Below, one piece after another: positions 124-14,586 of a stretch of 23,179 nucleotides of DNA; within the stretch, counting starts at the first letter, position 1, and each line of letters opens with the position of its first letter. This DNA is from a virus: positions 1 to 23,179 of the IMG/VR virus record IMGVR_UViG_3300031784_000203. One strand, 5' to 3'. The notes beneath the pieces were generated by a model that saw only the letters and a program-made list of their open reading frames with translations, had not been told where the DNA came from and ran no database searches. Position numbers and translations under genes: made by a program.

Positions 124-188
124 GTAAAAACACTCATTGACCTTTTTTGTGAAGTAATGCACTCTGAAAAAACAAATATAAAACTCTG

Positions 189-214
189 AGATCCCTTGCA
201 TGGGATCTTTTTTT
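189..214 (+). terminator. Intrinsic terminator (loop holds a -35 box)
   Basis: A perfect 7-bp stem (agatccc at 189-195, gggatct at 202-208) encloses the 6-base loop TTGCAT and runs into a 7-T tract (208-214). This is a standard Rho-independent layout and would end transcripts from the small gene at 1-123. The loop is exactly the -35 hexamer of the promoter at 196-224. Confidence 0.8.
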
Positions 215-224
215 GTGCTATAAT
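196..224 (+). promoter_or_regulatory. Sigma70-type promoter overlapping the terminator
   Basis: TTGCAT (196-201), a 17-bp spacer and TATAAT (219-224), with an extended -10 (TGTGCTATAAT at 214-224). The spacer consists of the hairpin's 3' arm plus its T-tract. Predicted start near 231, 16 bases before the ATG at 247. The same arrangement recurs at 12340-12374. Confidence 0.75.
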
Positions 225-11980: not shown

Positions 11981-12009
11981 TTGACATACATAAAAATTAG
12001 GAGTATACT
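11981..12009 (+). promoter_or_regulatory. Strong sigma70-type promoter
   Basis: Perfect TTGACA (11981-11986), 17-bp spacer, TATACT (12004-12009, five of six). Among the best host-like promoters in the window. Predicted start near 12016, leaving an 80-base leader before the DUF4278-like gene. Confidence 0.8.
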
Positions 12010-12015
12010 ACTTCT

Positions 12016-12095
12016 ATCGTTGACTGGGATGTCCAGCGGAAGTATCCTTTAAGGAGAAGCAACGCAAATTTACATACAGTAAAGGAGCTAAGCTA
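12016..12095 (+). promoter_or_regulatory. 80-base leader with two ribosome sites
   Basis: The leader can fold: CTGG-gatgt-CCAG (12024-12036) is a small hairpin, and CGTTG (12018-12022) can pair with CAACG (near 12061). It has two AAGGAG-type sites, one near 12050-12055 with no start codon after it and one at 12083-12086 that serves the ATG at 12096. A 7-codon frame (12029-12052, MSSGSIL) ends at the first site. Any regulatory role is inference. Confidence 0.35.
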
Positions 12096-12230
12096 ATGTC
12101 TAAGGTTGTTTATAGAGGTGTCGAGTATGACACCGAAATGCGTCGTCAAGCGCAACAGCAACAACAGCAACAGCCTCAACAATACGATGAAGCATATCGT
12201 GGCGTTAAATTCGTAAAGGAGTCTAAGTAA
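12096..12230 (+). CDS. DUF4278-like mini-protein with poly-Gln, 44 aa
   Basis: Good ribosome site (AAAGGAG) before ATG. The N-terminus VVYRGVEYD and the C-terminal YRGVKFVKE both show the Y-R-G-V pattern of DUF4278, a small family common in cyanobacteria. Between them is a Gln-rich stretch (QAQQQQQQQPQQ). The protein was too short for the usual gene-length cut-off, yet it stands behind one of the strongest promoters here with good translation signals, so it is probably abundant. Function unknown in host and phage. Confidence 0.8.
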   Translation: MSKVVYRGVEYDTEMRRQAQQQQQQQPQQYDEAYRGVKFVKESK

Positions 12231-12231
12231 A

Positions 12232-12333
12232 ATGAATACTTACTTTGTTCGTTATCTTAAGAAAAAAGCAAAGAAAGAAAAACTTCTATTAGCCGCACAA
12301 TTGAATATGGCAAAACGGCCACAAATTGCATAA
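12232..12333 (+). CDS. Basic mini-protein, 33 aa
   Basis: AAAGGAG (12215-12221) lies ten bases before the ATG, one base after the upstream stop. Sequence is MNTYFVRYLKKKAKKEKLLL, then AAQLNMAKRPQIA. A single basic amphipathic helix, likely co-translated with the DUF4278-like gene. I believe that pairing recurs in cyanophages. Function unknown. Confidence 0.7.
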   Translation: MNTYFVRYLKKKAKKEKLLLAAQLNMAKRPQIA

Positions 12334-12339
12334 GACTCT

Positions 12340-12365
12340 GGAGGATTGACAGTCCTCCTTTTTTT
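12340..12365 (+). terminator. Intrinsic terminator (loop holds TTGACA)
   Basis: GGAGGA (12340-12345) pairs with TCCTCC (12353-12358); the 7-base loop is TTGACAG; seven T follow (12359-12365). Ends the DUF4278 operon seven bases after its stop. Confidence 0.8.
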
Positions 12366-12374
12366 GTGTATAAT
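12346..12374 (+). promoter_or_regulatory. Consensus sigma70 promoter in terminator
   Basis: Perfect TTGACA (12346-12351) in the terminator loop, 17-bp spacer formed by the 3' stem and T-tract, perfect TATAAT (12369-12374). Predicted start near 12381, 15 bases before ATG 12396. Confidence 0.8.
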
Positions 12375-12395: not shown

Positions 12396-12584
12396 ATGAA
12401 TCCAGAAAAAATAAACCTAATCATCAAGAACATGGAGCTTTTAATTGAGTCACTTAAGCTCGAAATTAAAGAAGAAAAAGAAGAAGAAAATAAGTATACT
12501 ATAAAATTGGAAGAGCTTTTTTCGGCAGAAAAAAAAGAAGATCTTATAGATACTTATGAACCTGATTATTATGAGGAACGATAA
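12396..12584 (+). CDS. Coiled-coil acidic protein, 62 aa
   Basis: Start at 12396 follows the predicted transcript start; an in-frame GTG at 12366 overlaps the promoter and is unlikely. Long charged helix (IKNMELLIESLKLEIKEEKE) and an acidic aromatic end DTYEPDYYEER. Unknown function. Shares one base with the next gene (TAATG). Confidence 0.6.
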   Translation: MNPEKINLIIKNMELLIESLKLEIKEEKEEENKYTIKLEELFSAEKKEDLIDTYEPDYYEER

Positions 12585-12772
12585 TGTACGAAGAATTGAC
12601 TGCATTTGAAAGAGCACTTGCAAGATTTGGAGATAAAGTTCAATATGTCGTTGGTTTGGAGATTAGTGATAAAATTTCTCCGGAAACTGCATATCAAGAA
12701 ATTAAAGAAATGATAAAGGAATTAAAAAAACTTCGTAAAATTGAAAAGGACACCTGGGAGAATAATGAATGA
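12584..12772 (+). CDS. Unknown helical protein, 62 aa
   Basis: Reads MYEELTAFERALARFGDKVQ, then YVVGLEISDKISPETAYQEI and a Lys/Glu-rich helix. I believe this small protein precedes thyX in several cyanophages. The ATGA overlap with thyX suggests translational coupling. No known function. Confidence 0.65.
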   Translation: MYEELTAFERALARFGDKVQYVVGLEISDKISPETAYQEIKEMIKELKKLRKIEKDTWENNE

Positions 12773-13521
12773 AACCCATTAAAGCAAAAGATTTACTTGA
12801 ACTCGATAAGAACCTACAAGTAGTAGTTCTTCAATGTTATCCTGAACCAGAAAAAGTCATTTATCAAGCAGGTAAAGCCGACTATTCGGAAACTCCAATT
12901 CACTCCCAACAAATTCCATCTTCACATGAGTGTGGTGTATGGGTTGTGGATCGTCTCTTGAGTAATGAGAAAGGTCACTGGGGACCACTAGAACACCCTG
13001 CAATCACCTTCTCAGTGTCTGGATATGTCCACAATGTTGCGATGCAAGCAAGGACCCATAGAGTGGGCGTAAGCTTTGATGTTCAATCCCAACGATATAC
13101 TGGAAAGAGAGTCATTAAAGTTGCAAGTGGGGAACTCAAACCAGAAGATGTATTCTTTGTTCGTCCTCCTGGTTTCTATACCAATCGTTATGGTAAGAAG
13201 TATGATTGGACTCAAGAAGATTACCAAGACGAACTTGATTGGATTCTAGAAGGCTGTAAGCGTTATGCCGCAAAATATGAAAAAGGAATGTGTGAAGAAC
13301 ACATTAGGGATTATCTTGCACAAGCAATTCGTCAGAACTTTGTGGTTTCTTTTAACCTACGCTCTGTTCTTCATATTATGGATCTGCGTGCAAAGATGGA
13401 CGCCCAACTAGAAATACAGGCACTATGTGAACAGTTTGTTCCACATCTTCAAGAATGGGCACCAAATGTTTGGCAATATTATGAAGAAAAGCGTCTACAT
13501 CGTGCTCGGTTGAGTCCATAA
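12769..13521 (+). CDS. thyX: Flavin-dependent thymidylate synthase ThyX
   Basis: Makes dTMP from dUMP using FAD, NADPH and methylene-tetrahydrofolate. Family landmarks: HWGPLEHPAITFSVSG (70-85), the signature THRVGVSFDVQSQRY (96-110), where classical ThyX has RHRX7S, the C-terminal NLRSVLHIMDLR and a tail containing Gln-Leu-Glu-Ile-Gln. At 250 residues it is of normal length. The signature has one extra residue between the Arg98 and the second Ser107 (X8 rather than X7), a form I believe occurs in marine cyanobacteria and their phages. ThyX supports phage DNA synthesis and is a common cyanophage gene. The gene lies in a cluster with its own promoter at 12346-12374. Confidence 0.94.
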   Translation: MKPIKAKDLLELDKNLQVVVLQCYPEPEKVIYQAGKADYSETPIHSQQIPSSHECGVWVVDRLLSNEKGHWGPLEHPAITFSVSGYVHNVAMQARTHRVGVSFDVQSQRYTGKRVIKVASGELKPEDVFFVRPPGFYTNRYGKKYDWTQEDYQDELDWILEGCKRYAAKYEKGMCEEHIRDYLAQAIRQNFVVSFNLRSVLHIMDLRAKMDAQLEIQALCEQFVPHLQEWAPNVWQYYEEKRLHRARLSP

Positions 13522-13550: not shown

Positions 13551-13796
13551 ATGGCAATATATCCGATTGTTAATAAAGAAACGGGCGAGAAAAAAGTTGT
13601 TGAAATGAGTGTCCATGACATCACTCAATGGTACAAAGACAATCCAGAATGGCAAAGAGATTGGTCAGAGGGATGTGCAAGTCCAGGAGAAGTGGGGGAA
13701 TGGAAAGATCGCCTTGTGAATAAAAATCCAGGGTGGGGAGAAATCCTAAAAAAAGCCAATAAAGCTGGCGGAAGTAAATCACAAATGCAAATCTGA
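13551..13796 (+). CDS. Conserved small protein before phoH, 81 aa
   Basis: Begins MAIYPIVNKETGEKKVVEMS and has the aromatic segment WYKDNPEWQRDWSEGCA, then GEVGEWKDRLVNKNPGWGEI. The layout resembles small FmdB-like/zinc-ribbon-related phage proteins (short beta hairpin, NP-W motif, Pro-Gly-Trp near the end) but lacks the Cys pairs of a true FmdB ribbon. Conserved among T4-like cyanophages as far as I recall, next to phoH. Function unknown. Confidence 0.65.
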   Translation: MAIYPIVNKETGEKKVVEMSVHDITQWYKDNPEWQRDWSEGCASPGEVGEWKDRLVNKNPGWGEILKKANKAGGSKSQMQI

Positions 13797-13799
13797 TAT

Positions 13800-14561
13800 A
13801 TGGCAAGAAGGAAAAAGACTACAAATGACTATCAGCCTATTGGAGTTGGTATGACATCCAAGCAAATGAAAAGAAGGAAACCAATTAATTCCGAACTTCT
13901 TTTAGATATTGAACCTTTGACAGAAAATCAAAAAAGATTATTTGATTTTTATGATGAAGGTAAGCATCTAGTTGCATATGGAGCTGCTGGAACTGGAAAA
14001 ACATTTGTTCTTTTGTATAAAGCACTCCAAGAAGTGTTAAATGAAAAAAGTGCTTATGAAAAAATTTATATTATTCGTTCTTTAGTTCAAACTCGTGAGA
14101 TTGGATTTCTTCCTGGAGGACACGAAGATAAAAGTGCCTTATTTGAAATTCCATATAAGAACATGGTAAAATATATGTTCCAACTTCCTTCTGATGATGA
14201 TTTTGAGATGTTATATGGAAATCTTAAAGCACAAGAAACAATAAAGTTTTGGTCATCTAGTTTTCTAAGAGGAACTACTTTTGATAATTGTATTATCATA
14301 GTAGATGAATTCCAAAACATGAACGGACACGAACACGATTCTATTATCACTAGGGTCGGAGAAAATTGCAAAATCATGTTTAGTGGTGATGCATCCCAAA
14401 GTGATTTAATTCGCCAGAATGAAAAGAATGGAATACATGATTTCATGAGAGTTTTAAGTATCATGCCTTCTTTTGAAACAGTCGAATTTGGCATAGATGA
14501 TGTCGTTAGATCTGGTTTAGTAAAAGAATACTTAATAGCCAAGCACTCACTTGGTCTTTGA
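13800..14561 (+). CDS. phoH: PhoH-like P-loop ATPase
   Basis: A RecA/helicase-type ATPase. Walker A is GAAGTGKT (61-68) and Walker B IIIVDE (165-170), followed by FQNM as in PhoH proteins. Other landmarks are IIRSLVQTREIGFLPG (91-106) and the sensor-like MFSGDASQSDL. At 253 residues it is the compact phage form. phoH is very common in marine phages and linked to phosphate stress by name, but its actual role is unclear; nucleic-acid handling is likely. Basic N-terminus (ARRKK). The gene after it has its own consensus promoter overlapping the phoH stop. Confidence 0.93.
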   Translation: MARRKKTTNDYQPIGVGMTSKQMKRRKPINSELLLDIEPLTENQKRLFDFYDEGKHLVAYGAAGTGKTFVLLYKALQEVLNEKSAYEKIYIIRSLVQTREIGFLPGGHEDKSALFEIPYKNMVKYMFQLPSDDDFEMLYGNLKAQETIKFWSSSFLRGTTFDNCIIIVDEFQNMNGHEHDSIITRVGENCKIMFSGDASQSDLIRQNEKNGIHDFMRVLSIMPSFETVEFGIDDVVRSGLVKEYLIAKHSLGL

Positions 14562-14586
14562 CAACGCCATAAGAACCTGCTATAAT
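14558..14586 (+). promoter_or_regulatory. Consensus sigma70 promoter for replication block
   Basis: Perfect TTGACA (14558-14563, overlapping the phoH stop), 17-bp spacer, perfect TATAAT (14581-14586) with TG at the extended -10. Predicted start near 14593, before ATG 14610. Likely drives the nuclease, gp33, gp59 and DUF1825 genes together. Confidence 0.85.

Follow-up and report, generated by a model that had tools for sequence, protein, structure and literature searches.

The window analyzed here (the whole stretch of 23,179 bases, an IMG/VR virus record, studied at the level of sequence) carries a hairpin fused to a promoter at positions 12340 to 12374. This element divides a glutamine-riboswitch unit from a thyX-phoH nucleotide-metabolism operon. 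The closest cultured relatives of the window are Synechococcus T4-like phages, the best being S-SRM01, from a freshwater reservoir, and a T4-like genome is supported by this nearest cultured relative (Kyanoviridae). Genes in the region include those for thymidylate synthase, PhoH, an exonuclease (also downstream of the element, after PhoH), gp33-type and gp59-type proteins, and SSB. The features, in window coordinates, were as follows.

188 to 224, plus strand: copy 1, hairpin GAGATCCC(TTGCAT)GGGATCTT, T tract, extended -10 TGC-TATAAT, weak -35 TTGCAT
11981 to 12009, plus strand: promoter-like TTGACA-17-TATACT before the riboswitch
12016 to 12068, plus strand: glutamine riboswitch aptamer (RF01739, 45.7 bits), head of the upstream unit
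12096 to 12230, plus strand: 44-aa ORF with sub-threshold DUF4278 similarity (E = 0.0055, below the Pfam cutoff)
12232 to 12333, plus strand: 33-aa ORF that closes the upstream unit, its stop codon 6 nt ahead of the hairpin; conserved in S-SRM01
12340 to 12358, plus strand: predicted terminator hairpin GGAGGATT(GAC)AGTCCTCC, 8 pairs, fold of -10.8 kcal/mol
12346 to 12351, plus strand: -35 box TTGACA in the hairpin tip
12359 to 12365, plus strand: seven-T tract, terminator U-tract and part of the promoter spacer
12369 to 12374, plus strand: -10 box TATAAT, 17 bp from the -35 box
12396 to 12584, plus strand: 62-aa ORF, first gene 3′ of the fused element; same family in 45 relatives
12584 to 12772, plus strand: phrog_765/DUF7219 protein
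12769 to 13521, plus strand: thymidylate synthase, ThyX-type (flavin-dependent in annotated relatives)
13551 to 13796: small phrog_385 transcription regulator, same operon as thyX
13800 to 14561, plus strand: PhoH-like protein, thyX operon

A scan of 20 related loci found a glutamine riboswitch in 11 as well. The phoH/exonuclease gap holds a second perfect promoter, TTGACA-17-TATAAT (14558 to 14586, plus strand), with TGC before its -10 box and no hairpin.

On the plus strand, 12340 to 12374 reads GGAGGATT(GAC)AGTCCTCC-TTTTTTT-GTG-TATAAT. In the fold of 12340 to 12358, only GAC is left strictly unpaired, with the TT before it ending the 5′ arm and the A after it beginning the 3′ arm; most of the promoter spacer is T tract. 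TTGACA-17-TATAAT (12346 to 12374) is a 12/12 match to a sigma-70-type promoter. Transcription, read from the position of the -10 box, would start at about 12381, giving a leader of ~15 nt before the downstream ORF. A first-pass annotation had placed here a hairpin, seven T residues, and TATAAT, with TTGACA and TATAAT in perfect consensus and 17 bp apart; both sequence and coordinates were confirmed. Its view that such fusions exceed chance also held, since the window contains two looser fusions (counted as a hairpin enclosing a TTG-type -35 box, with a -10 box at 16 to 18 nt) versus a mean of 0.023 and a maximum of 1 per shuffle in 1,000 dinucleotide shuffles of the window. The 12/12 promoter with a hairpin did not occur in any of these 1,000 shuffles. 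In its predicted parts, the element is a PeSL-like joining of an intrinsic-terminator stem-loop to a strong sigma-70-like promoter. PeSLs (promoter-early stem-loops), terminator-promoter composites in T4-like phages, were reportedly described by Arbiol in 2010 and Comeau in 2014.

Relatives of the locus were collected with a thyX-anchored search (80 contigs, of which 70 had 600 nt or more of upstream sequence and were used), and hairpins were picked 150 to 560 nt before thyX by position and hairpin score only. A terminator hairpin lay at the equivalent place in 67 of the 70 contigs with related thyX, a raw count that overstates independence because these are related sequences; no such element was found at the other 3 of 70 thyX loci (L358, L391, and L394). 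The apical ten bases contained TTGA in 45/45 distinct versions versus 1/69 other terminators from the same loci (Fisher, 4e-31). A usable -10 box accompanied 43 of the 45 distinct elements, with 17-nt spacing in 40 of the 43. The stems were far more varied, with 24 different six-base 5′ arms among the 45; pairing was 100% between arms of the same element and 68% between arms exchanged among elements. S-SRM01, after the same 33-aa ORF, has AAGGAGGG(TTGATT)CCCTCCTT plus TTTTTATGATAAAAT, with a -10 box of TAAAAT at 17 nt and a G-C pair in place of an A-T pair of the window stem. Independent loss of the hairpin and of TTGACA, named in the first-pass annotation as grounds for doubting a link between the two, was not seen at the thyX locus.

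The hairpin starts at most ~35 nt from the preceding stop codon in most relatives. The first downstream gene belonged to one family at 45/45 loci, while the genes just upstream belonged to many, and the element therefore travels with the downstream operon. This inheritance fits a promoter of that operon, as expected; the same pattern would also be the look of a PeSL-like module boundary.

Covariation was scored on exact sequences sharing one geometry, in which 7/7 stem pairs had changed on both sides. Double-changed cells numbered 28 versus 8.1 in shuffles (0/500 shuffles as high), and the covariation score, 1.05 in register, was no higher than 0.29 when the partner was slid by 1 to 3 columns. 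A second geometry, with a CTTGAC loop, gave 17 double changes versus 5.1 shuffled. Both sets were chosen beforehand as hairpin forming, so the percentage paired is expected and double changes alone count. Two near-identical pairs of contigs (L344 versus L345 and L363 versus L364) each differed by one compensatory A-T/G-C stem change with the loop untouched. Compensatory stem changes around a fixed loop motif, put forward in the first-pass annotation as a check, were thus found. As far as comparison of the letters goes, two separate constraints are shown to act on one sequence, namely, RNA pairing and DNA promoter letters.

TGn-TATAAT is the extended -10 of sigma-70 promoters. Among thyX-set elements, TGn preceded the -10 box in 0/32 with TTGAC at 16 to 17 nt and in 11/11 with TTGAT or 18-nt spacing. 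On the thyX tree, a weak -35 box and TGn changed together in 6/6 independent comparisons (sign test, p = 0.031), with the "weak" class defined after the data were seen and the tree test leaving six events. A separate draw compared deduplicated viral matches to T7GTGTATAAT (no TGn) and T7GTGNTATAAT (TGn). At hairpin-bearing sites, TTGAC stood at 17 nt in 24/69 without TGn versus 3/56 with TGn (p = 5e-5); the corresponding counts at hairpin-less sites were 4/27 and 10/48. The contrast weakened when spacings of 16 to 18 nt were counted (25/69 without TGn versus 10/56 with TGn; p = 0.03). The separate draw supports an apparent trade-off between the -35 box and the extended -10.

The element at 12340 to 12374 had first been taken for a second copy of a fusion at 188 to 224. 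That site is real as a hairpin with TATAAT, but its -35 box, TTGCAT, matches at 3/6 positions, too few for a second consensus promoter. The GTG ahead of the -10 box is relevant in that GTGN-TATAAT constitutes an extended -10, a motif present in copy 1 and missing from copy 2 (12340 to 12374). As for the motifs said to be shared, TTTTTTTGTG was found, on either strand, at the two elements only, but ACTCTG (12335 to 12340, taking in the first stem base) occurs 4 times on the plus strand of the window versus an estimated ~3.6 expected from base composition and so carries little weight as a flank. It was absent upstream of the element in the near relatives L322 and S-SRM01. Within this 23-kb fragment, the two copies have different stems and flanks. 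A counterpart of copy 1 upstream of relatives of its downstream gene was found in 1 of 28 cases, only in a contig whose gene is 100% identical. The duplicated-cassette reading was therefore rejected, given the lack of conservation of ACTCTG and of any counterpart to copy 1 at the relatives' loci. Of the original alternative, a duplicated or selected cassette, selection stands (compensatory stems and a fixed loop motif) and duplication falls (copy 1 unshared, with a poor -35 box). Just upstream of copy 1, TTGACC-TTTTTTGTG (137 to 151, plus strand) has no hairpin and is possibly a decayed promoter fragment.

Full genomes were scanned for terminators with an exact TATAAT 7 to 16 nt after the stem. 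This rule returned 5 in S-SRM01, 4 in ACG-2014f, 2 in S-PM2, 2 in S-RSM4, and 7 in P-SSM2 and none in the full genomes of Syn9, T4, RB49, or KVP40; genome scans of T4 likewise gave no similar terminator-promoter fusions. The pattern TTGAC...T6GTG...TATAAT was hairpin enclosed in 40/89 viral versus 7/116 cellular matches (p = 5e-11). Genome-wide, many cyanophage terminators are followed by a -10 box without a -35 box in the loop (TTCG or GCAA loops), and strict coupling of terminator and -35 box is therefore a property of some loci, including the thyX locus. Among 12 named genomes, the exact-spacer query TTTTTGTG-TATAAT matched S-SRM01 and ACG-2014f only; such matches are few because most copies vary in spacer letters, and hairpin-based scans were accordingly used. 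ACG-2014f (L248-L249) carries several near-identical terminator-promoter copies with the shared flanks GGCACA ... CTATACTATATTCATACC and GGCACA...ATTCATACC, which look like a repeated cassette, unlike the two copies in the window. A recurrent two-stem terminator, GGGAGGT-AACTGG-loop-CCAGTT-..-ACCTCCC followed by T7GTGCTATAAT, was seen in L107, L054, L109, L086, L081, and others, with TTGACA or TTGCAC where the two stems meet on the 3′ side.

The element is very probably one bifunctional boundary element of a T4-like cyanophage, a terminator as RNA and an early promoter as double-stranded DNA. As RNA, it would be an intrinsic terminator ending the upstream unit (promoter, glutamine riboswitch, and small ORFs). 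As double-stranded DNA, it would be an early promoter for host sigma (sigma-70 type), serving two small genes, thyX, the regulator, and phoH, with the hairpin tip supplying the -35 box and the U-tract the spacer. Early cyanophage genes are believed to be transcribed by the unmodified RNA polymerase of the host from sigma-70-like promoters (PMC2984593). Selection on termination would keep the stem pairing, and selection on initiation would separately keep TTGA, the 17-nt spacing, and the -10 box; stem letters would then drift by compensatory change while promoter letters stay, because pairing and promoter letters are selected separately. The element may also shield the thyX operon from its changing upstream neighbors. 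From these features we infer that the element terminates and initiates transcription during infection, where transcription starts, that it acts early, and that its benefit is to insulate the two units from each other.

An alternative that we consider unlikely is a mobile recombination cassette, a short homology block for gene shuffling (the PeSL role) in which the regulatory overlap is secondary. The element does mark the boundary at which the upstream gene is replaced and the downstream gene kept, the ACG-2014f copies have near-identical flanks, and PeSL-mediated gene shuffling has been reported for T4-like phages, as cited in PMC4503421. However, stems and flanks differ between the two window copies and among relatives, which leaves little homology to recombine, and Puxty et al. 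(2015) judged PeSLs in cyanophage S-PM2 too sparse to explain gene gain there (PMC4503421).

It is rather improbable that the overlap is itself the mechanism, with polymerase at the U-tract blocking, or being recycled onto, the promoter that it covers; if true, the glutamine-controlled upstream unit would set how often the thyX-phoH operon starts. The hand-over form, in which RNA polymerase would stop at the U-tract, stay on the DNA, and restart so that upstream transcription feeds the downstream operon, we regard as doubtful. Bacterial RNA polymerase is documented to stay on DNA after termination, diffuse, and sometimes reinitiate nearby (PMC6978380; PMC6978322), and the geometry here is the closest possible for such recycling; reinitiation after termination is usually antisense (PMC6978322). 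A polymerase stopped over the -35 to -10 region could equally block the promoter, and the documented cases are bacterial, with none for cyanobacterial or phage-infected systems in the literature consulted.

Operators are commonly laid out as inverted repeats spanning a -35 box, and the small phrog_385 regulator lies in the same operon, so the repeat could be the operator of a repressor or activator protein rather than a terminator. An operator would conserve letters, whereas stem letters here vary freely with pairing alone kept; the T run directly after the repeat and the nearness of the hairpin to the preceding stop codon in most relatives also argue against this reading, which is very unlikely. 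Compaction by chance, with T-rich terminators and AT-rich promoters overlapping in short intergenic space, draws on packed genes and on the frequency of -10 boxes directly after cyanophage terminators and is contradicted by the shuffles, the single TTGA tip among control terminators, and the few hairpins around the cellular pattern, so it is scarcely credible.

If the bifunctional reading is right, then viruses infecting freshwater cyanobacteria would carry part of the start signal of the next genes in the tip of the hairpin at which transcription of the preceding gene ends. The locus offers a clean natural case of a 35-bp stretch constrained in two separable ways (by RNA pairing and by DNA letters) in dozens of versions, and one at which an extended -10 repeatedly arises with a weak -35 box in orthologous position. 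Early promoters of uncultured cyanophages could be sought with a simple rule drawn from it (TTGA in a hairpin tip, then a U-tract, and a -10 box at 17 nt), and it provides an ideal natural substrate on which to ask if RNA polymerase that has terminated obstructs a neighboring promoter or supplies it.

Composite terminator-promoter elements of T4-like phages are known as PeSLs, as cited in PMC4503421 and PMC5931544. The window element resembles them in joining an intrinsic terminator hairpin to a strong sigma-70-like early promoter between T4-like gene modules and differs in that intercopy homology and recombination were not found for the two elements of the window. In RB49, TTGACA lies mostly 13 to 32 nt beyond the stem, in tandem, whereas here the -35 box is in the hairpin tip. 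The KVP40 series GGGTTGAC(loop)GTCAGCCC is alike in having the -35 box inside a terminator hairpin, TATTAT just past the T tract, and several copies; TTGAC there sits in a nearly fixed stem with an 18-nt spacer, so that the stem sequence is frozen, whereas cyanophage elements hold TTGA in the tip and have freely diverging stems. A KVP40-type stem-embedded -35 box was thus rejected for the window, whose stem (GGAGGATT/AGTCCTCC) is variable among relatives and whose spacer is 17 nt. As in extended -10 sigma-70 promoters, TGn is present where the -35 box is weaker; unlike such promoters generally, the trade-off here plays out within the hairpin of a terminator and across orthologs of a single locus. 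In the literature searched, no earlier description was found of a loop-embedded -35 box with a freely drifting stem and an extended -10 trade-off. On its predicted parts, this arrangement is a variant within the known PeSL-like composites.
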